This document shows, piece after piece, positions 5,463 through 51,632 of a stretch of 64,000 bases of DNA (the first letter of the stretch is position 1; the number at the start of each line of letters is the position of its first letter). The DNA comes from an uncultured Lachnospiraceae bacterium (GTDB lineage Bacteria > Bacillota > Clostridia > Lachnospirales > Lachnospiraceae). The notes under the pieces were generated by a model. The model searched no databases. It saw only the letters and a list, made by a program, of their open reading frames with translations, and had not been told where the DNA came from. The stretch lies in contig CANOMQ010000008.1 of the NCBI GenBank assembly GCA_947567595.1, positions 1 to 64,000 of the forward strand, in the 5' to 3' direction. The translations under genes and the position numbers were made by a program.

Positions 5463-7841
5463 TTAAGCCTTCGCGTCCGCAAGCCGCATGGTCAGCGAAA
5501 TGCGCTTCTTTGCCATATCCACGTCGAGCACCTTTACATCCACAATATCACCGACGCTCACCGCCTCAAGGGGGTGCTTGATATATTTTTCGGTAATCTG
5601 CGAAATGTGCACCAGTCCGTCCTGATGGACGCCAATATCCACAAACACGCCAAAATCAATGACGTTCCTGACCGTTCCTTTCAAAATCATGCCGGGCTTT
5701 AAGTCCTTCATATCCAGCACGTCACTGCGCAAAATCGGTTTTGGCATATCCTCGCGCGGATCTCTTGCAGGCTTTTCAAGCTCCTTTAAAATATCCGTCA
5801 GCGTAATTTCACCGATACCAAGCTCCTCGGCCATCTTCGCCTTATCCTTCACGCGCTTTTCAAGGCTCCCTGCTGATACTGCCGCCGAGGTTTCCGCTTC
5901 CTTTATGACACCTGTGTCATTTTTCTTCGTACTGCCCGTATCGACTTCCATCTGCCCGATTGCCGCCGCAAGCGCTTTTCCCATTGCCGTATTCGTGTTG
6001 CGGATAACAATGGACTGCTTTTTATTGCGGTTATTTTTGTTTTTGTCCTGCTTCGCGGGCTTCGTCTTTGCCGGCTTTGCAAGCGCCGCCTTTTTCTGAA
6101 TTTCCTTCAAGTCCTCCATCGACACGCCAAGCCTGTCCAAAAGCTGCATTGCCGCCGCATAAGACTCTGGGTGGACGCTTGTCGCGTCAAGCGGATTCTC
6201 GCCATCCGTAATCCGCATAAAGCCTGCACACTGCTCAAATGCCTTTGGTCCAAGCTTGGCCACCTTTAGAAGCTGCTTTCTGTTTGTAAACCTTCCGTTT
6301 GTCTCGCGGTAATCAACAATATTCTTCGCAATCGTCTTGTTAATGCCCGAGATATATTCCAACAGCGACGCAGACGCCGTGTTCAAATCCACGCCAACCT
6401 TGTTTACGGAGTCCTCCACCACGCCGTTTAACGCCTCACTTAATTTCTTTTGGTTCATGTCATGCTGATACTGCCCCACGCCAATCGACTTCGGATCTAT
6501 CTTTACCAGCTCCGCAAGCGGGTCCTGCAAACGTCTCGCAATCGATGCCGCACTTCTTTGCCCCACGTCAAAATTCGGAAACTCCTCCGTCGCAAGCTTG
6601 CTCGCCGAATAAACCGACGCGCCCGCCTCGTTCACGATTACATACTGTACCGGAGTATCAAGCTCCTTAATCAGCTCCACAATCACCTGCTCCGACTCCC
6701 TTGACGCCGTGCCGTTTCCAACAGAAATGAGACTGACATTGTACTTGCTAATAAGCTTTTTCAGCTCCTTCTTTGACTCCTCCACCTTGTTTTGGGGAGC
6801 AGTCGGATAAATCACCTTTGTATCAAGAACCTTTCCCGTCGCGTCCACAACGGCAAGCTTACAGCCTGTCCGAAACGCAGGGTCCCAGCCCAGCACAACC
6901 TTGCCCGCGATTGGCGGCTGCATTAAAAGCTGCTCCAAATTCTTTCCGAAGACGGAGATCGCACCGTCCTCCGCCTTTTCCGTCAGCTCGTTTCGGATAT
7001 CACGCTCAATCGCAGGCGCAATCAGACGCTCGTAACTGTCCTTGATGGTTTCCTGCAATGCGGGCGTCGTATTTTCGTTGTCGGCAGTAATCACCTTTGT
7101 CTCAAGGAAGCGGATAATGCGCTCTTCAGGCGCTTCCACCTTGACGGTCAGAATTTTTTCGTTCTCGCCGCGGTTAATCGCAAGCACCCTGTGACCTGCA
7201 ACCTTGCTTACCGGTTCCTCAAAATCATAGTACATTTCATACACGCTCTGTGCCTTCTCATCCTTTGCCTGACTAATGAGCTTTCCTTCCTCAAAGGTTG
7301 CTTCTCGAATGTATGTTCTAAATTCGGCATTGTCCGAAATCTGTTCCGCAATAATATCCATTGCGCCCTGTAATGCTTCCTTGACGTTTTTGACTTCCTT
7401 CTCCTCATTGACATAAGGCTCTGCTTCCGCAATCAGCGTATTCTGTGTTTCCTGTGCAAGGATAATCTGCGCCAGTCCTTCCAGTCCCCGTTCCTTTGCC
7501 ACGCTTGCCCTCGTCTTTCGCTTCGGACGATACGGAAGATACAAATCATCAACTGCCACCATCGTCTCCGCCGCAAGGATTTTTTCTCGCAGCTCGTCGG
7601 TAAGCTTACCCTGCTCCTCTATACTTCCAAGCACCTGAGTCTTTTTCTCCTCAAGATTTCTAAGATAGCCAAGCCGTTCGTTTAGGTTTCTTAGCACCTC
7701 ATCGTTCAAAGAACCCGTGACCTCCTTGCGGTATCTTGAGATGAAGGGAATGGTGTTCCCCTCGTCAATCAGCTTGACCGCCGCCTCCGCCTGCCACTTT
7801 TCAATGCCTAATTCCTCTTTTAGTTTTAAAATAATATCCAT
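5463..7841 (-). CDS. tex: Tex/YhgF-family S1 RNA-binding transcription factor
   Basis: Tex homologue that acts on transcription complexes and RNA. Visible parts: the N-terminal Tex helical region, the YqgF/RNase H-like domain (about 320-450, with GWDPAFRTGCKLAVVDATG), helix-hairpin-helix repeats (about 480-570) and a C-terminal S1 domain (about 715-790, GTVRNVIDFGVFVDIGVHQDG). At 792 aa it is longer than the usual 710-730. The excess is a Lys/Ala/Asn-rich linker (about 590-690) between the HhH and S1 domains. That linker contains the palindrome at 5905-5920. The gene stands alone, with its own promoter and a terminator. Confidence 0.93.
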   Translation of the reverse strand: MDIILKLKEELGIEKWQAEAAVKLIDEGNTIPFISRYRKEVTGSLNDEVLRNLNERLGYLRNLEEKKTQVLGSIEEQGKLTDELREKILAAETMVAVDDLYLPYRPKRKTRASVAKERGLEGLAQIILAQETQNTLIAEAEPYVNEEKEVKNVKEALQGAMDIIAEQISDNAEFRTYIREATFEEGKLISQAKDEKAQSVYEMYYDFEEPVSKVAGHRVLAINRGENEKILTVKVEAPEERIIRFLETKVITADNENTTPALQETIKDSYERLIAPAIERDIRNELTEKAEDGAISVFGKNLEQLLMQPPIAGKVVLGWDPAFRTGCKLAVVDATGKVLDTKVIYPTAPQNKVEESKKELKKLISKYNVSLISVGNGTASRESEQVIVELIKELDTPVQYVIVNEAGASVYSASKLATEEFPNFDVGQRSAASIARRLQDPLAELVKIDPKSIGVGQYQHDMNQKKLSEALNGVVEDSVNKVGVDLNTASASLLEYISGINKTIAKNIVDYRETNGRFTNRKQLLKVAKLGPKAFEQCAGFMRITDGENPLDATSVHPESYAAAMQLLDRLGVSMEDLKEIQKKAALAKPAKTKPAKQDKNKNNRNKKQSIVIRNTNTAMGKALAAAIGQMEVDTGSTKKNDTGVIKEAETSAAVSAGSLEKRVKDKAKMAEELGIGEITLTDILKELEKPARDPREDMPKPILRSDVLDMKDLKPGMILKGTVRNVIDFGVFVDIGVHQDGLVHISQITEKYIKHPLEAVSVGDIVDVKVLDVDMAKKRISLTMRLADAKA
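5905..5920. repeat. 16-bp palindrome ATGACACCTGTGTCAT inside tex
   Basis: This sequence falls in the linker-coding part of tex and encodes NDTGVI. A near-identical copy is inside the RsmF-like gene (54529-54544), and a related TGACA-N4-TGTCA lies upstream of nrdD (19416-19429). It appears to be a dispersed short palindromic element. Confidence 0.45.
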
Positions 7842-44371: not shown

Positions 44372-45391
44372 ATGGCTACCATAAAAGAAATTGCAGCACT
44401 CGCCGGAGTCTCCCGCGGAACGGTTGACCGTGTGCTCAACAACCGCGGCTGCGTAAACCCCAACACCGCCGAAAAAATAAGGGAAATCGCCAAAGCGCTT
44501 GACTACAGGCCAAACAAGGCAGGTCTTGTGCTTGCTGCCTCGAAAAAGAGGCTTAAGCTCGGAGTCATCATATTTTCCGCGGAAAATCCGTTTTTCTCCG
44601 ATGTGCTAAACGGCATCAATGATAAAGCGGAAGAGCTTGCTGAATACGGGTGCTCCGTGCTCATCAAGCAAATTCCAATCAATACGGAATTGCAGCTAAA
44701 GGCAATTGATGAGCTGGTCGCCGCAGAGGTCAACGGCATCGCGCTTGCCCCCTGCAATGACAACCGTATCCGCGCCCGCATCAATGAGCTGGTTGAACAG
44801 GGAATTCCTGTTGTCACCCTTAACACGGATATTGAAAACGCGAAACGTATTGCATATGTCGGCAGCCATTACACCAAAAGCGGCGCTACTGCCGCAGGGC
44901 TTTTGCGGCTTATGACAAGCGAAGAGGTCTTTGTCGGCATACTGACCGGTTCGTCTGATATTTTATGCCATACAGAGCGCATTGCGGGCTTTTCAAACAC
45001 GCTTGCTCCCGATCAGGAGCGCATTCACATTGTTTCCATTACGGAAACACATGATGATGAAATAGAGAGCTATGAAAAAACCACAGCGCTGTTAAAGGAA
45101 CACCCTGAAATCAATGCATTGTATTTTGCCGCGGGCGGCGTATATGGCGGGTGCCGCGCAGTATCCTCCCTAGGGCTTGCGCGTAAGCTCAAAATTATTG
45201 CTTATGATAAGGCGGACACAACCGAGGATTTCTTAAGAAAAGGCATTCTGTCTGCCGTAATCTGCCAGCAGCCGCGCACACAGGGCAAAAAACCGCTTGA
45301 TATTCTCTTTTCATACCTTACCACCGGAGAACTGCCGGAGCAGGAATATAACTATACTGCCGTAGATATCCGGATTTTGGAAAATATTTAA
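44372..45391 (+). CDS. LacI-family regulator divergent from the isomerase
   Basis: HTH IKEIAALAGVSRGTVDRVLNNRG (about 4-26) and a type I periplasmic-binding domain (about 60-330) with ENPFFSDVLNGINDKAEELA, closest in style to RbsR/xylose-binding-type LacI members. Binding of a pentose or deoxy-hexose is therefore plausible (inference). AGGGA lies 7 nt upstream of the ATG. It should control the isomerase and itself through operators A and B. Its stop codon overlaps that of the convergent DNA-metabolism gene by 4 bp. Confidence 0.92.
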   Translation: MATIKEIAALAGVSRGTVDRVLNNRGCVNPNTAEKIREIAKALDYRPNKAGLVLAASKKRLKLGVIIFSAENPFFSDVLNGINDKAEELAEYGCSVLIKQIPINTELQLKAIDELVAAEVNGIALAPCNDNRIRARINELVEQGIPVVTLNTDIENAKRIAYVGSHYTKSGATAAGLLRLMTSEEVFVGILTGSSDILCHTERIAGFSNTLAPDQERIHIVSITETHDDEIESYEKTTALLKEHPEINALYFAAGGVYGGCRAVSSLGLARKLKIIAYDKADTTEDFLRKGILSAVICQQPRTQGKKPLDILFSYLTTGELPEQEYNYTAVDIRILENI

Positions 45392-46170
45392 GGTGACTGG
45401 AACTCTGTCATATTCGGTCTGAACCGCAGCGGCAGGAAGCCTGTCTGGAGCCTTTTATTCGTTCTTGATTCGATGGCAATCGTCTTGCAGAACCGTCTGA
45501 ACAGCTCCTGATAGTCCTTCTCTGCCGCTGTCAGGTTTAATCTCTCACTGTCAATCTCGATTCCCTGCACAAGATACCACTGCTTTTGTTTTTCATGAAT
45601 CCCGTATACATCTGTATTTTCATCGTAAATCATGAAATTTTCGGAAGGAAGCCTGTCTGCAAAATGCGGCATCAGAAACGGCAGAATATGGTGCTTGACA
45701 TTAATCTTTGCGTACAGTATCCCTCCCTCAAGCTCCGCAAAGCGCGTAAATTCTATCATGTGCCCCAATTCATTGGAAGATGCCCGCGCATATTTGAATG
45801 TCTGCTGCACCCAGTCCTCGCCAAGCCTGTCCATAATCAGGCTGTCATTGTTTCTGAGTGCCAGCACAATGGTATGGTAGACCGCATCTGCCTTCTCCAT
45901 AAAGCATGACACCATTGCAAGACACAAACGATAATAGACCTCATTGCCAAGCCTGCTTCTGATCGTATTGATGACCTTATCCGCATTTTCATAATTTGTT
46001 TCAACCGTTCTGTAATCCGTGAAAAGACGATAGGTATCAGGATTGTTTACGGCTAAGTGAATGACCTCGTGACTCTCTATGCCTTGTTCCTTTTTAAACC
46101 TGTATGCTTCATAAACACCGCTTAAAATCCCCTCCATGCTGTCCTCACACAGCAATACATACTCACACAT
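45388..46170 (-). CDS. Putative DNA metabolism protein (TIGR03915/DUF4130 type)
   Basis: Protein of 260 aa matching the family regularly encoded next to a radical SAM DNA-repair/modification protein. Conserved-looking stretches include YVLLCEDSMEGILSGVYEAY at the N-terminus, FARFAELEGG-like EFTRFAELEGGILYAKI (about 155-170), and HHILPFLMPHFADRLP. In other bacteria this domain is found with or fused to a uracil-DNA-glycosylase-like domain, pointing to DNA repair. The exact reaction is unknown. The ATG at 46170 overlaps the radical SAM gene by 8 bp and has AAGGGG upstream, so the two are translationally coupled. Confidence 0.8.
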   Translation of the reverse strand: MCEYVLLCEDSMEGILSGVYEAYRFKKEQGIESHEVIHLAVNNPDTYRLFTDYRTVETNYENADKVINTIRSRLGNEVYYRLCLAMVSCFMEKADAVYHTIVLALRNNDSLIMDRLGEDWVQQTFKYARASSNELGHMIEFTRFAELEGGILYAKINVKHHILPFLMPHFADRLPSENFMIYDENTDVYGIHEKQKQWYLVQGIEIDSERLNLTAAEKDYQELFRRFCKTIAIESRTNKRLQTGFLPLRFRPNMTEFQSP

Positions 46171-47572
46171 ATGCCGTCCCCTTCCCTTCGTGCGCCATGC
46201 CAAACATTGCCGCGTTTTCCATGCCGTCATCAAACAGCGACAACTGCTTATAGGTCATGCCGTCCTTGTCAAAGGGCAGCTTCTCATGCTCCGATAAAAG
46301 GTTGCGTGTAATGTAGTCCTCATCAATCTTGGTATGGTACATCATTTTTCCATTGCAGGTGATAAAGTACAATGCTCTTTTGAGCACCACACCGATTTTC
46401 TTTAGATTGTCAAAGCCAAGCGCACTGCTTTTTCTTGCCTTGCAGATACGCTGTGCGCTCTTTACGCCAATTCCCGGCACGCGCAGCAGCGTTGTGTAGT
46501 CCGCCTTGTTAATCTCCACCGGAAACTGCTCTAAATGGCGGAGCGCCCAGTCGCACTTTGGATCTAAGAGGATATTGAAATTTTGGTGCTTTTCATTTAA
46601 AAGCTCGTTTACCCGAAAGCTGTAGTAACGAAGCAGCCAATCTGCCTGATAAAGGCGGTGCTCCCGAAGAAGCGGAGATGCCGTCGTCACCGCAGGGAGC
46701 GCTTTATCCTCATTCACACCCACATATGCGGAATAGAAAACCCTTTTCAAAGCAAATTTGTCATATAAGCTCTCTGCTACCGACATAATCTGATAATCGC
46801 TCTCCGGCGTTGCCCCGATAATCATTTGCGTTGATTGTCCCGCAGGCACAAACGATGGCGCACTTTTATAAAGCGCAAGCTCCTGCTTCCCCTGTGCAAT
46901 ACCGTTTTGTATCTGACGCATCGGCTTTAGAATGCTTTTCCGGTGCTTATTGGGCGCAAGCTTTTCTAACCCCTCCGCGGTTGGCAGCTCCAGATTGACA
47001 CTCATTCTGTCCGCAAGATATCCCGTCTGCTGAATGAGCACCGGATCGGCTCCCGGAATGCCCTTGACATGAACATACCCGCGGAAACGGTACACGTTCC
47101 GAAGCAGGTATAAAGTCTGATAAATCCGTTCCATTGTATCGTTCGGATTATTGACAATGCCGGAGCTTAGAAAAAATCCTTCTATATAATTGCGCTTATA
47201 AAAATTCATGGTAAGCTCACAAATCTCTTCCGGCGTGAAGGTGGCTCTTGGTACGTCATTGCTTCTGCGGTTGATGCAGTACTTACAGTCATAAACGCAC
47301 TCATTTGACATGAGTATTTTTAATAAGGAAATGCATCTTCCGTCTGATGAGAAGCTGTGGCAAATGCCTGCCGCCAGACAGTTGCCCATATCACGTCCGT
47401 TTCCCTTCCTGTTAACACCGGAGCTTGTACATGCCACATCATACTTTGCCGCGTCTGTCAGGATTTCAAGCTTTTCCATAATCGACTTTCTTGTTGTGGA
47501 GTACAATTCAAGCTTTATTTCATTTTCACAAACGACGTTTTCTGACGCCAAATCACTTGAAATCTGTCCCAT
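46163..47572 (-). CDS. Radical SAM DNA repair/modification protein (TIGR03916 type)
   Basis: Radical SAM enzyme with the cluster motif CVYDCKYC (about residues 90-97, CX3CX2C) in the barrel. The C-terminal helix-hairpin-helix LLRVPGIGVKSAQRICKARK (about 365-385) is of the DNA-binding kind. The family is annotated as a putative DNA modification/repair protein and is a constant partner of the gene that follows. GAGGTGG lies before the ATG at 47572. Three LexA/DinR-like boxes cover the promoter region, which would place the pair in the SOS response. The lesion or base acted on is not established. Confidence 0.87.
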   Translation of the reverse strand: MGQISSDLASENVVCENEIKLELYSTTRKSIMEKLEILTDAAKYDVACTSSGVNRKGNGRDMGNCLAAGICHSFSSDGRCISLLKILMSNECVYDCKYCINRRSNDVPRATFTPEEICELTMNFYKRNYIEGFFLSSGIVNNPNDTMERIYQTLYLLRNVYRFRGYVHVKGIPGADPVLIQQTGYLADRMSVNLELPTAEGLEKLAPNKHRKSILKPMRQIQNGIAQGKQELALYKSAPSFVPAGQSTQMIIGATPESDYQIMSVAESLYDKFALKRVFYSAYVGVNEDKALPAVTTASPLLREHRLYQADWLLRYYSFRVNELLNEKHQNFNILLDPKCDWALRHLEQFPVEINKADYTTLLRVPGIGVKSAQRICKARKSSALGFDNLKKIGVVLKRALYFITCNGKMMYHTKIDEDYITRNLLSEHEKLPFDKDGMTYKQLSLFDDGMENAAMFGMAHEGKGTAYV

Positions 47573-47680: not shown

Positions 47681-48004
47681 TTATGATAATTCACATATGA
47701 GCTCCAAAATTCTCAATACATTTTGTTTTTGATAGTCGTTGTACTTATTCAGAAGCTTGTTGATGTACAGGTTACAAGGCTCTTCTCCGCTTTTTCCGAC
47801 AAGAATATAGTCACATTTTACCTCAAGCGCGTCGGACAGGTGATAGAGCACCTCTGCCGTAAAGCCTTTCTTTCCTGTTTCGATTTCATATAGAAATTTC
47901 GATGATACATTTGATTTGCTTGCGAGATAATCTCTTGTGTAACCCTTGGTGAGTCTTAACTGGTGAATTCGTTCCCCTGCTTTCACATAAATCTGACTAA
48001 TCAT
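47681..48004 (-). CDS. XRE-family regulator next to agrB
   Basis: A 107-residue single-domain regulator with a Cro/C1-type HTH (about 8-65, with RLTKGYTRDYLASKSNVSSKFLYEIETGKKG) and a short helical C-terminal tail. The ATG at 48004 has AAGGG upstream; a longer frame from 48085 lacks support. It is divergent from agrB across a 308-bp region with a large inverted repeat, so it may control agrBD. An effector domain is absent; control may come from its own level or a partner protein. Repressor or activator cannot be told from sequence. Confidence 0.88.
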   Translation of the reverse strand: MISQIYVKAGERIHQLRLTKGYTRDYLASKSNVSSKFLYEIETGKKGFTAEVLYHLSDALEVKCDYILVGKSGEEPCNLYINKLLNKYNDYQKQNVLRILELICELS

Positions 48005-48175
48005 AATTTCTTCCCTTTCTCTTTTTGCGTGTGCCAGCTCTGCCTTTGGCCTTCCTTGAGCTGGACTGTTACCTTTGTGTTCCAATTAATACCTTCTCAC
48101 TGCTGCCGCTTCGTGCTCGGGCAGTGGTATGAGTTAACATAATATATGTTGCGCGATTTTTGTCGAAAAATGTAT

Positions 48176-48251
48176 TAAAGTATGCGAAATCGCGTTTTAA
48201 CGACAATATTCTCCAATTTTTGGTATTTTATACGCGATTTCACATACTTTA
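48176..48251. promoter_or_regulatory. Inverted repeat with CGCGATTT motifs upstream of agrB
   Basis: TAAAGTATGCGAAATCGCGT (48176-48195) and ACGCGATTTCACATACTTTA (48232-48251) are inverted copies with one mismatch, 36 bp apart. A third CGCGATTT lies at 48152-48159. These are likely binding sites for the neighbouring XRE protein or the LytTR regulator. I see no convincing pair of AgrA-type LytTR direct repeats. Confidence 0.55.
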
Positions 48252-48312
48252 TTCCGATTTTCCATTACATTATGCTTTTTGTATTAATATGGGCGAGGTG
48301 GAGGGATGTGAG

Positions 48313-48876
48313 TTGCAAAACATTTTACATATGGCGAGCGAGAGTGCCAATCTAAACTCTAAGGAGCAAAAGTTTTTAATATTCCGTCTGAAATGTATTT
48401 TATACGATATCAGTAAATTGATTTTGTTTACGGCATTTTTTGCGGTGATGCATAAGCTAAGCGGTTTTATCTTCGCCTTTCTGATTTTTTATCCGATACG
48501 GCAGATATCCGGTGGGCTTCATTTTAAGCACTATTTTTCCTGTTTGGTGTTCTCATTTGTTTATATGCTTCTTGTTGTTGCAGTGCTTTCACCTCTGACA
48601 CTGGAACTTGCGGTTGTCGTCCCTATCTTGGCAGTTTGCGCAACTGTCATTTATGCGATAGGGCCGATACGTCCGCCTTCAAGACCTGCGTTGAGTAAGC
48701 AGGAATTTGCGGAGCACCGTAAGAAGGCGTTTAGCATTGTTTGTTATGAAGCGGTACTGGTTGTATTGTTTTTTGATAGCGAGCTTGCCAGTGTGGGGTA
48801 TTGGACTATTATTTTGCATACGTTGCAGTTGGTAATAGCGTTTATTGTTAAGAAAGGTGGTGAAAGAAATGCTTAA
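48313..48876 (+). CDS. agrB: AgrB-like peptide-processing membrane protease
   Basis: Integral membrane cysteine endopeptidase that cuts the AgrD precursor and closes its thiolactone ring. The catalytic region is complete: R63-x3-GG with His70 in SGGLHF and Cys77 in FSC, at the same 7-residue spacing as in S. aureus AgrB. Several TM helices follow, ending IVKKGGERNA. The start is TTG with GGAGGG 7 nt upstream, giving 187 aa, the usual size; a longer frame would run through the promoter repeats. It overlaps agrD by 8 bp. Confidence 0.92.
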   Translation: MQNILHMASESANLNSKEQKFLIFRLKCILYDISKLILFTAFFAVMHKLSGFIFAFLIFYPIRQISGGLHFKHYFSCLVFSFVYMLLVVAVLSPLTLELAVVVPILAVCATVIYAIGPIRPPSRPALSKQEFAEHRKKAFSIVCYEAVLVVLFFDSELASVGYWTIILHTLQLVIAFIVKKGGERNA

Positions 48877-49015
48877 GAAATTGTCTTTGGAAAAGGTTGA
48901 GTTACTTTTGGCTTCTGCTTTTGCAACTGTTCTTATTACTTTAATTGTTGATTTGCCTTATACAGGTCTGTGTACTTTCTTCTTTGGAGAGCCTGAATAT
49001 CCATTTGATGAGTAA
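48869..49015 (+). CDS. agrD: AgrD-like autoinducing peptide precursor (48 aa)
   Basis: A short gene overlapping agrB by 8 bp, with AGGTGG before the ATG. The N-terminal amphipathic/hydrophobic helix (about 1-28) is followed by DLPYTGLCTFFF and the acidic tail GEPEYPFDE. This is the AgrD plan: membrane helix, ring segment, charged recognition tail. The single Cys35 and four following residues would form a five-membered thiolactone ring C-T-F-F-F, with AgrB cleaving before Gly40. The N-terminal edge of the mature peptide is unknown; YTGL is the likely tail region. The ring sequence is unfamiliar to me. Confidence 0.88.
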   Translation: MLKKLSLEKVELLLASAFATVLITLIVDLPYTGLCTFFFGEPEYPFDE

Positions 49016-49032
49016 GCTCTATTATTCTCGCA

Positions 49033-49068
49033 TTTTTATCGTATAGGAAATTTCCTATACGATAAAAA
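49033..49068. terminator. Perfect 36-bp palindrome between agrD and agrC
   Basis: TTTTTATCGTATAGGAAA is followed at once by its exact reverse complement (49033-49050 and 49051-49068). The stem is flanked by A and T runs on either side, so it can act as a bidirectional terminator for the convergent agrBD and agrAC units. The gap 49069-49241 is AT-rich and has no gene I can support. Confidence 0.8.
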
Positions 49069-49241
49069 GCTTCGAATATCATTATTTCTACTATATTTAA
49101 GCAAATATAAAAAACCACATAAAACCGCATAAAATAATTTTTATATACCACTCACGAACAAAGCAAATATAAGACTCTGAAATTGTCATTGTTAGGGAGA
49201 CAAATTTGTACAGAATTTTAAATTTACTTATTTATAGATTT

Positions 49242-50483
49242 CTAAAAACACACTTTAAAACATAAGTAATTCATATTATCTTTTGTGATGTTTTCTGCTT
49301 GAATACTTGCTTTATATTTTTTCAATAATATATTCACTCTATATAGTCCAACTCCATGTTTCTCCCCCTTTGTGCTATATCCATACTCAAAAAATTTTTC
49401 AATCTCACTATTGGTCTTCCAACTACTTATATTAGCTATAGAAAATAAAATTTTGCTCTCTTTTTTTCCCAATCTTAACTCCATTTCTGTATCCCCTTGT
49501 TCTCTGAGCGCTTCAATAGCATTATCAAAGAGAATACCGATAATCTCTATTAAATCATTTACTGCAATATGTTCAATATTAATATCTTGTATTTCATATG
49601 TTATGTTAATATTGTATGCGGACGCAGTTGTGAACTTAGAGTATAAATAACCTACTAAAATTGGGGACATATTCAATTTCAATAATTTATTATATTTATT
49701 ATCCTGTAATATTCTCTCACAATATTTATCTTGTTCATCAAATAATTCTTCTATATTTCGAATTGTATATCGCATACATTTAATTGCATTAATATGATTA
49801 TCAAATTCATGCTGCTTCAGTCTAATTGTAGTCACTGCATCTTCAAATGTTTTTGTATATAACTCATAAGTTCTCAATTCCTCTTCCTTATGTTTCTTCT
49901 CGTTTTCTGAATTAATCCAAAGAATAAGCATTAGTGCTACTATCAAAAAGCAAATTACCATTTGTCGCATAGAATATGCATTAATCACTTTATATTCTGT
50001 AAAATATGAAATCAAACATATTAGCAAAAAAAATAGCAATATAATAAAAATAACTCTTCCAAACTTGGTAACTATATTCACCAATATGTTAAAATATTCC
50101 CTTTTCCATATTAAAAAAAATGCTGCAATTAAAATATTTATAATTATCATTACCAAATAAATATCAAATATTTTAAGTATTGACTCACCAATTGCCGCAT
50201 ATATCAAAAGTTGAAGCATTGGTATCGTACATATTGTTACACCAAATGGTTTTATTGCCCGTTTCCATGTATTCGTTATTCTAATTCTTATATACAGAAA
50301 CCAATATACATACAATATTAAATTACCGAAACTAGTCCCTTCTAGTATAAATATTAATAACATATAAAATGCAAAATCAAAAACACTAATCCAGCTAATA
50401 TTAATCTTCTTATTAGCCATTTTATGTATACAAAGTACAATACTCACATACTCCGTAAATAGTTTCAAAAAATTACCAATCAT
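49242..50483 (-). CDS. agrC: AgrC-like GHKL sensor histidine kinase
   Basis: Membrane receptor kinase of 413 aa. About six TM segments occupy residues 1-190. The phosphoacceptor box is RLKQHEFDNHINAI with His225, and the GHKL ATPase domain has ILFDNAIEAL (Asn321), SIANIS and STKGEKHGVGLYRV. This is the AgrC/ComD architecture for sensing cyclic peptides. The ATG overlaps the response-regulator stop by 4 bp (ATGA). The gene is markedly more AT-rich than most of the window, which suggests acquisition or fast divergence. The ligand is presumably the AgrD-derived peptide encoded next door. Confidence 0.88.
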   Translation of the reverse strand: MIGNFLKLFTEYVSIVLCIHKMANKKINISWISVFDFAFYMLLIFILEGTSFGNLILYVYWFLYIRIRITNTWKRAIKPFGVTICTIPMLQLLIYAAIGESILKIFDIYLVMIIINILIAAFFLIWKREYFNILVNIVTKFGRVIFIILLFFLLICLISYFTEYKVINAYSMRQMVICFLIVALMLILWINSENEKKHKEEELRTYELYTKTFEDAVTTIRLKQHEFDNHINAIKCMRYTIRNIEELFDEQDKYCERILQDNKYNKLLKLNMSPILVGYLYSKFTTASAYNINITYEIQDINIEHIAVNDLIEIIGILFDNAIEALREQGDTEMELRLGKKESKILFSIANISSWKTNSEIEKFFEYGYSTKGEKHGVGLYRVNILLKKYKASIQAENITKDNMNYLCFKVCF

Positions 50484-51199
50484 AATTCCTCAAAAAACCC
50501 CTTCTTCATCCTACCGCCAATCCGAACAACCTTCCCATTCCGCAGCTTCACCATCAAATTCACCTTATCCACATACTCAATAAACCGCCTGTTCACGACG
50601 GTATTTCTGCTGCATTGGACAAAATGCTTTCTTGGCAAATCCTTCATAAGATTTTTCAGCGATGCATATGGAATTTCAATCGTCTCGTCGAGCGTGTAAA
50701 TCATGACATTTCTAAAGCTTGTCTCCAAATAAATCATTCTGTCGATATTCAGGGCATAAAGCACGCCGTCCTTCCTGTAATAGAAAACGCCGCTGTCCCT
50801 GTCATCACAAAGAGGTGCCTGTAATGCACGGCTTATGATTTTGCCTACATTGTCCATATCGAAAGGCTTTTCAATGTAATCATAACAATGCAGATTGTGA
50901 AACGCGTTCATCGCCTCATCTACAAGGCTTGTGATAAAAATAACAGGTGTAAATTCATAGCGCTTATATTTTCTGAGTCTGTCTATCAGCACAATCCCCG
51001 AAATATCATGTGCGTTTTCGCCGTCCAAAATGATATCCACCAAGAACAGGTCAATTTCATTTTCCATCGCATACTTATACGCGTCCGCACTATTATCAAC
51101 GCAAAAAACAGCACCGACAGTGTCACATTTTCGTGTCAATTCCGCCAGTGCTTCCATACATGATCTATTGTCCTCAATTATCAGTACATTTCTTTTCAT
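50480..51199 (-). CDS. agrA: AgrA-like LytTR response regulator
   Basis: Two-domain regulator of 239 aa. Receiver domain (about 1-125) with the acidic pair Glu9/Asp10, phosphoacceptor Asp55 in LFLVDIILDG, and Lys in YIEKPFD. LytTR DNA-binding domain (about 140-239) with MIYLETSFRNVMIYT and HFVQCSRNTVVNRRFIEYVD. It is cotranscribed with the kinase (4-bp overlap) and lies 20 bp downstream of a small XRE gene. It probably activates agrBD and other targets when phosphorylated; the promoter sites are not obvious. Confidence 0.92.
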   Translation of the reverse strand: MKRNVLIIEDNRSCMEALAELTRKCDTVGAVFCVDNSADAYKYAMENEIDLFLVDIILDGENAHDISGIVLIDRLRKYKRYEFTPVIFITSLVDEAMNAFHNLHCYDYIEKPFDMDNVGKIISRALQAPLCDDRDSGVFYYRKDGVLYALNIDRMIYLETSFRNVMIYTLDETIEIPYASLKNLMKDLPRKHFVQCSRNTVVNRRFIEYVDKVNLMVKLRNGKVVRIGGRMKKGFFEEL

Positions 51200-51219
51200 A
51201 GTTTACAGCATGCCCAATG

Positions 51220-51462
51220 CTAACCGATTTCCTGCTCCAAATCGTGGAACAATCCGCTGTGGAAAAATTCGTCCAGCGGGATATTCAAACCGTCACAGAT
51301 TACTTTAATTGTCACAATTCCCGTATTTTTGCTGTTTCCGTTCATGATGTTTTTCAGTGTTGATGGCGGCATTCCCGCATTATACGCCAATTGTGAGATC
51401 TTCAAGTTCCTTTCATCACAAAGTTTTTTGATTCTGCACACTACTGCTTCCTGTGTCTTCAA
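51220..51462 (-). CDS. Small XRE-family regulator upstream of agrA
   Basis: An 80-residue Cro/C1-type HTH protein with IKKLCDERNLKISQLAYNAGMPPSTLKNIMNG (about 11-42) and a short tail IPLDEFFHSGLFHDLEQEIG. The start is TTG, with GAGGTG about 8 nt upstream. It is the first gene of a probable XRE-agrA-agrC operon. A near-palindrome at 51543-51563 upstream may be its own operator. Stand-alone XRE proteins of this size often autoregulate. Confidence 0.82.
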   Translation of the reverse strand: MKTQEAVVCRIKKLCDERNLKISQLAYNAGMPPSTLKNIMNGNSKNTGIVTIKVICDGLNIPLDEFFHSGLFHDLEQEIG

Positions 51463-51542: not shown

Positions 51543-51563
51543 TTGTATTATCTCATATTACAA
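51543..51563. promoter_or_regulatory. Near-palindrome upstream of the XRE-agrA-agrC unit
   Basis: TTGTATTAT and ATATTACAA flank CTC; 8 of 9 positions are complementary. It lies about 80 bp before the XRE start. Candidate operator. Confidence 0.4.
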
Positions 51564-51632
51564 GATTTCTATCAGGCAACCGGTTCTTATATGGTCTTTG
51601 TGACATTTTTATACATTTTCTGCATATTCCGC

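Follow-up and report, generated by a model that had tools for sequence, protein, structure and literature searches.

Agr quorum-sensing systems, their division into separate agrBD and agrCA units, and lactone variants of their autoinducing peptides (AIPs) are all already known. In staphylococci, AgrA binds direct repeats just upstream of both the P2 and P3 promoters (accessible text of PMC4227749), and no counterpart of the staphylococcal RNAIII is known in clostridia, according to the accessible parts of PMC8748961 and PMC12312760. The locus described here lies at 47681-51462 of the window, by which is meant the whole 64,000-nucleotide stretch analysed (positions 1 to 64,000 of contig CANOMQ010000008.1, assembly GCA_947567595.1, from an uncultured Lachnospiraceae bacterium). 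The analysis confirmed a complete Agr-type gene set with a rearranged layout at this position: all six genes reported in a preliminary description of the window are present, namely agrB, agrD, agrC, agrA, and the genes of two Cro/C1-type helix-turn-helix (HTH) proteins identified with Pfam, XRE1 and XRE2. AgrB and agrD lie on the (+) strand, XRE1-agrA-agrC lie on the (-) strand, and XRE2 is divergent from agrB, so that agrBD and agrA-agrC converge and do not form a single agrBDCA operon. The preliminary description was right that a full Agr-type locus is present, given that AgrB, AgrC and AgrA match their families and AgrD is found beside agrB in relatives, and that its split layout differs from staphylococcal agrBDCA, with the gene starts corrected by eye (to TTG 48313 for agrB and ATG 48004 for XRE2).

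The intergenic region between XRE2 and agrB contains a site of about 31 bp twice, as an inverted, mirror-image pair. This pair was missed by the preliminary description and is the main concrete evidence for coupling between XRE2 and agrBD. The features of the region are listed below.

47681..48004, (-) strand: XRE2, Cro/C1-type HTH protein of 107 aa whose gene diverges from agrB (Pfam HTH_3 matches the longer open reading frame 47681-48085 at 5.5e-08)
48139..48166, (-) strand: predicted XRE2 promoter, -35 TCGACA, 16 nt, -10 TATTAT (consensus scan, 10/12 matches)
48165..48195, (-) strand: putative operator arm 1, pointing to XRE2 (inverted repeat; matrix score 43.6, 0/200 shuffles as high; a matrix-building arm)
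48232..48262, (+) strand: putative operator arm 2, pointing to agrB (inverted repeat; matrix score 41.9, 0/200 shuffles; a matrix-building arm)
48259..48287, (+) strand: candidate agrB promoter, TTTCCA, 17 nt, TATTAA, with a weak -35 (by eye from the sequence and the alignment of relatives)
48313..48876, (+) strand: agrB, membrane endopeptidase, 187 aa (Pfam AgrB PF04647, E 8.3e-27; His70/Cys77 invariant in 15/15)

The XRE2 start was placed by eye at ATG 48004, instead of the first TTG, from an alignment with 15 relatives, and TTG 48313 was judged by eye to be the best agrB start, being preceded by GGAGGG at 48300-48305 and in agreement with aligned relatives. The predicted XRE2 promoter was the single site found by the scan against a shuffle mean of 1.2, and hence is not above chance alone, but it is aligned in relatives; the candidate agrB promoter is absent from the output of the consensus promoter scan. 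The predicted XRE2 -35 marks the end of arm 1; arm 2 ends at the weak candidate agrB -35, which was read by eye.

The exact core of the site, TAAAGTATGYGAAATC, occurs twice in the 4.16-Mb genome (99 contigs), both times between XRE2 and agrB, with no one-mismatch copies and seven two-mismatch copies. At up to three mismatches, 50 forward and 43 reverse matches were found, against 38 and 37 for a reversed-pattern control; totals at this threshold are close to the control, and so only the exact copies stand out. Among five related genomes (G-numbers below), G005 carries the exact TAAAGTATGYGAAATC pair in its agr locus and G002 a single exact arm in its own; in this comparison the reversed-pattern control had no match in any of the six genomes. 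A site matrix was built from five arms of three species (both arms of the window, both of locus L035, and one of L036); with it, an inverted pair is recovered at the equivalent position of L036, L037 and L038. L037 and L038 were held out of the matrix; the scores of arms not used in building it, each followed in brackets by how many of 200 shuffles reached as high a best match, are 15.8 (0) for the second arm of L036, 12.3 (0) and 6.4 (14) for L037, and 19.4 (0) and 13.4 (1) for L038. In each of the five species, 67-68 bp separate the starts of the two arms.

The sequences show the genes, their conserved order, and the site pair with its conserved spacing in close relatives; the binder of the arms, the sign of the control, and the peptide are inferred, as follows. 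AgrB would cut AgrD after Phe39 and close a five-residue thiolactone, C-T-F-F-F; the peptide would be exported and sensed by AgrC, which would phosphorylate AgrA, all as expected from family membership. Phospho-AgrA would then bind the two mirror-image sites and switch on both directions, agrBD as positive feedback and XRE2 as the quorum output, so that a protein acting as transcription factor would occupy the position of staphylococcal RNAIII. XRE1, ahead of agrA and agrC on the same strand, probably sets their level. The reading of the locus as a rearranged Agr-type cassette in which phospho-AgrA binds both putative sites and XRE2 is the output is given a probability of roughly 45%.

Several observations weigh against this reading. 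G002, G005 and G008 each contain one copy of TAAAGTATGYGAAATC with a single mismatch away from the agr locus. L039 shows one arm only (20.3, 0/200 shuffles), and no convincing site pair was found in the seven other loci scanned (L040, L041, L043, L044, L045, L046 and L047; L042 and four XRE2 loci of other genera were outside the scan), with the best matrix score in L041 (7.8, 6/200 shuffles) lying elsewhere in the region. By simple inverted-repeat scoring, just the window and L035 among 15 loci beat all 40 shuffles. The staphylococcal AgrA repeat is not above chance in any of three intergenic regions (p 0.38, 0.87 and 0.81). Weakly in favour of AgrA, the repeats of an AgrA site are spaced by 21 bp, and 21 bp is also the strongest direct-repeat period inside the arms (equalled in 0/500 column permutations at this lag; p 0.034 when all lags are considered); however, the signal comes mostly from two T-tracts and lags of 8, 20 and 22 likewise give p under 0.05, the permutation p is optimistic since permuting columns breaks T-runs, and the period is therefore weak support for AgrA binding. 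The arm centres lie at about -46 to -48 from the starts estimated by eye, versus about -60 for promoter-proximal AgrA repeats in the accessible text of PMC4227749. Finally, a search for targets of the operator beyond the agr locus gave no clear second one in six genomes, of whose near-matches one recurrent case was traced. This near-identical 20-mer, found once in each of five of the six, was rejected as a target because in all five it lies inside the same conserved coding gene of about 1200 aa and so reflects protein conservation. A second operator-like 20-mer, with three mismatches, is common to the close relatives G008:C98:5308 and G009:C25:5816.

The same arms could instead be bound by XRE2, which would repress both itself and agrBD and so brake signal production, by setting a threshold for it or shutting it off; this is regarded as a serious possibility, albeit not a probable one. 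Cro/C1-type proteins often repress divergent promoters, the XRE2 gene is tightly linked to the region, and the arms reach up to or into both predicted -35 hexamers, a usual place for a repressor. That the exact core is private to the locus in the window genome also suits a local autoregulator more than a global response regulator. The arms as a whole, however, are not palindromic by eye, unlike the usual operator of a Cro/C1 dimer, and the recognition-helix region, judged by eye, is largely conserved in 16 aligned XRE2 proteins across genera, whereas seven loci of the genus that are more distant show no recognisable site. With either protein as the binder of the candidate sites, the novelty lies in the coupling of XRE2 to agrBD. 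A third explanation, that the mirror-image repeat works as RNA, with a long hairpin in the leader of one transcript acting on agrB or XRE2 at a step later than initiation, is very improbable. The (+) strand at 48160-48270 does fold at -28.6 kcal/mol (z -5.35), but the predicted starts, placed partly by eye, lie outside the repeat on both sides and therefore neither transcript would carry both arms; moreover, the arms of L036-L038 match the matrix but are not prominent as an inverted repeat, which suits protein sites more than a stem. RNAIII has an Rfam model, and no Rfam match at the gathering threshold was found in the window; opposite agrB, where RNAIII would be expected, stands XRE2.

A comparison of 30 agrB loci (the window, L034-L047 and L057-L071) bears on whether the XRE genes belong to the system. 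AgrB matches at E <= 0.001 were found in 21 of 38 genomes of the genus, its own included. Of 299 genomes of the family searched with a profile, 16 had matches at E <= 1e-25; these belong to 15 of 298 genera, so that the clade is uncommon at that threshold. Two fragments of G018 (L016 and L026) were excluded from the locus counts, as was match C66 of G134. Seventeen of the 30 loci have XRE2 in divergent orientation to agrB (the window, L035-L039, L041-L047, L058, L060, L068 and L069; the upstream region of L057 is shortened by a contig end), that is, in 13/14 loci within the genus and 4/16 outside it. The exception within the genus is L040, where two XRE2-like genes lie elsewhere in the locus. 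An XRE gene stands directly upstream of agrA in 19 of the 22 convergent, readable loci, L047 and L060 being counted on HTH matches below the Pfam cut-offs; L064, L068 and L071 have no adjacent XRE gene. The set of 22 omits L035, L063 and L069, which meet contig ends, and L034, L040, L066, L067 and L070, which lack either the convergent order or nearby agrA/agrC matches. In L040 (G015), the position directly upstream of agrA is occupied at 5801-5986 by a 61-aa HicB-like protein instead of an XRE protein, a weak match below cut-off (E 0.0015).

The gene upstream of agrA varies in form. The short XRE1 type of about 80 aa is present in nine loci of the genus, whereas an open frame 223-260 codons long, in which HTH models match twice, takes its place in L045, L046, L057, L058, L059, L061 and L065, and two adjacent HTH genes do so in L060. 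Identity to the window in L036-L039 is 94-99% for XRE1 and 74-79.5% for AgrA, and the neighbourhoods of L036, L037 and L038 are syntenic from efflux genes at one end to a radical-SAM gene at the other. Adjoining the agr locus at 45388-47572, a radical-SAM protein (TIGR03916, 2.2e-211) overlaps its partner, a DNA-repair-like protein (TIGR03915, 7.5e-58), and the pair also adjoins the agr locus in L035-L039.

This might be an ordinary clostridial Agr system whose neighbouring XRE genes have no part in it, but that is considered unlikely. XRE genes are common, and outside the genus XRE2 is beside agrB in just 4/16 loci; the linkage, on the other hand, persists (17/30 for divergent XRE2, 19/22 for XRE upstream of agrA) despite AgrB identity down to about 30 percent or less. 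With equal short flanks of about 1.5 kb on each side of agrB, an XRE2 profile matched 13/14 clade loci versus 2/16 other agrB loci of the genus, a comparison that favours the clade because the profile was built from it. The two control matches, in L020 and L022, are weaker and lie downstream of agrB on the agrB strand; in both loci, two tandem XRE-like frames are seen downstream of agrB. The conserved linkage supports the earlier claim that the two XRE genes are part of the locus, and a further layer of control by them is plausible. A solved-structure search with XRE2 gave no match at 1e-4.

The remaining features of the locus are as follows.

48869..49015, (+) strand: agrD, 48-aa precursor (found beside agrB in relatives; no curated family match)
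48971..48985, (+) strand: segment encoding the predicted ring C35-T-F-F-F39; GEPEYP comes next in the precursor (the ring itself is a prediction)
49033..49068, (+) strand: perfect 18-bp palindrome between the convergent operons (inverted-repeat search)
49242..50483, (-) strand: agrC, sensor kinase, 413 aa (family and structure matches; N-terminal half hydrophobic)
50480..51199, (-) strand: agrA, response regulator with LytTR domain, 239 aa (Pfam)
51220..51462, (-) strand: XRE1, 80-aa Cro/C1-type HTH protein, first gene of the agrA-agrC run (Pfam HTH_26, 2e-09)
51547..51575, (-) strand: predicted XRE1-agrA-agrC promoter, CTGATA, 17 nt, GATAAT, with TG (consensus scan, 9/12)
51582..51599, (-) strand: element AAAGACCATATAAGAACC, upstream of the XRE1-agrA-agrC promoter (alignment of 7 loci)

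The scan for the XRE1-agrA-agrC promoter returned three sites against a shuffle mean of 1.8. Of the seven aligned loci, four (the window, L036, L037 and L038) carry AAAGACCATATAAGAACC exactly and three (L039, L041 and L043) a similar element; these include more distant loci where the XRE2-agrB sites were not recognised. The palindrome at 49033-49068 folds on both strands (-22.5 and -24.1 kcal/mol, z -8.4 and -7.2) and may be a two-way terminator, although it is not among the sites listed by the consensus terminator scan.

The identity of the core proteins agrees with the Agr scheme, comprising an AgrB endopeptidase with His and Cys, an AgrD of the expected form, an AgrC kinase, and an AgrA with receiver and LytTR domains. 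The set of Arg, Gly-Gly, His and Cys residues noted previously in AgrB corresponds to Arg63, Gly67-Gly68, His70 and Cys77, invariant in all 15 aligned AgrB sequences; His70 and Cys77 are presumably the catalytic residues. AgrC matches Pfam HATPase_c_5 (5.7e-13), and its best NCBIfam match is a DcuS/MalK kinase (6.1e-22), with the staphylococcal AgrC model third (7e-13, residues 41-384), both below their cut-offs; a solved-structure search, however, returned just two matches at E <= 0.01, both of them parts of the staphylococcal AgrC kinase (best 3.9e-11). AgrA matches Pfam Response_reg (5.5e-14) and LytTR (2.3e-13) and scores 3.2e-06 with the staphylococcal NCBIfam AgrA model, below its cut-off. 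Family and structure matches therefore agree with the earlier assignment of an AgrC-like kinase and an AgrA-like LytTR regulator convergent to agrBD. Two further agrB genes, about 3 kb apart from start to start, lie on another contig of the same genome (G000:C35 15097-18579, L048), with no AgrD evident beside them at a quick look. A mobile origin of the locus is not supported, there being no plasmid match and one weak match to a phage record; this record (MT839371.1, Bacteriophage sp., 4.7 kb, unannotated) encodes an AgrB-like stretch at 596-886 that covers 52 percent of the query at 35 percent identity.

AgrD, the product of 48 codons overlapping agrB by 8 nt, has no Pfam or NCBIfam match, but the motif [S/C]-x-x-x-[F/L]-GE occurs in all 27 readable precursors, that of the window included; the proposed 48-aa AgrD with a predicted C-T-F-F-F ring is supported. 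Comparison of AgrD among relatives, as the preliminary description had suggested, shows Ser (18/27) or Cys (9/27) five residues before Gly-Glu, and Phe or Leu immediately before the Gly; the window AgrD and its closest relatives carry Cys. Candidates were chosen next to agrB by an acidic, Pro-containing tail pattern (L067 by BLAST), and so the tail is partly selected for, whereas Ser/Cys is not. The count leaves out L035, where a run of N interrupts agrD, L069, which meets a contig end, and L070, in which no agrD was found. On the AgrB tree, from which L069 and L070 were excluded, the Ser/Cys state requires a minimum of four changes; support for the deep forks is weak, but one group of 14 with good support (100/96) contains both states. 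In L041, L042 and L044, Cys-Gly-Pro-Ser stands ahead of hydrophobic residues, and since a Cys lies three residues before the Ser, their ring is ambiguous between a five-residue Ser-lactone and a larger Cys ring. The AgrD leader is hydrophobic, yet its helical moment is low (0.07-0.22). The PEYP segment agrees with the Pro-X-X-Pro of clostridial AgrD in the accessible text of PMC8748961. The ring is very hydrophobic, as had been remarked, but such rings are the rule in this clade. The novel look attributed to the peptide holds insofar as the table of known AIPs in PMC12312760, as far as that source was accessible, lacks C-T-F-F-F, although its nearest entry, Staphylococcus hyicus C-T-V-F-F, is close.

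Compared with S. aureus agrBDCA, the locus shares AgrB, AgrD, AgrC and AgrA, a predicted five-residue ring, and a divergent promoter region before agrB with paired sites, one oriented to each promoter, and the XRE2-agrBD region may by analogy be the counterpart of P2/P3, with XRE2 in the place of RNAIII. It differs in that agrBD and agrA-agrC are separate and convergent, a protein gene, XRE2, stands where RNAIII does, XRE1 precedes agrA, and the staphylococcal AgrA repeat has no match. Clostridial agr systems, such as that of Clostridium acetobutylicum, are similar in their split agrBD and agrCA units and their lack of a known RNAIII counterpart, and since such separate operons have already been described, the split layout alone is not new; flanking XRE genes are not mentioned for them in the accessible parts of the same source (PMC12312760), and the peptide differs. 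No description of an XRE-flanked agr form was noticed in the open-licence literature, seen mostly as titles and abstract starts of top results, and an earlier description is possible. For Agr output without RNAIII in clostridia, the conserved gene of a transcription factor next to the agrBD promoter offers a direct candidate and, if this is true, would constitute a protein-output version of P2/P3 in organisms without any described RNAIII counterpart. It is tentatively proposed that these loci form a clade with XRE2 in the RNAIII position, co-activated with agrBD from mirror-image sites, in which thiolactone and lactone alternate by Cys/Ser exchange. As in the lactone AIPs of Staphylococcus pseudintermedius and Enterococcus faecalis (GBAP), which have Ser rings, the Ser of 18/27 clade precursors would likewise yield a lactone. 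Clostridioides difficile agr2 has a Ser-ring entry in the accessible table of PMC12312760, and the lactone pentapeptide of Clostridium thermocellum, as far as its source was accessible, offers a further comparison for the Ser-type precursors. The window AgrD, in contrast to these lactones, has Cys, and the alternation of Ser and Cys among related AgrD-AgrB-AgrC sets provides a natural exchange with which to study the acceptance of lactone versus thiolactone rings by AgrB and AgrC.

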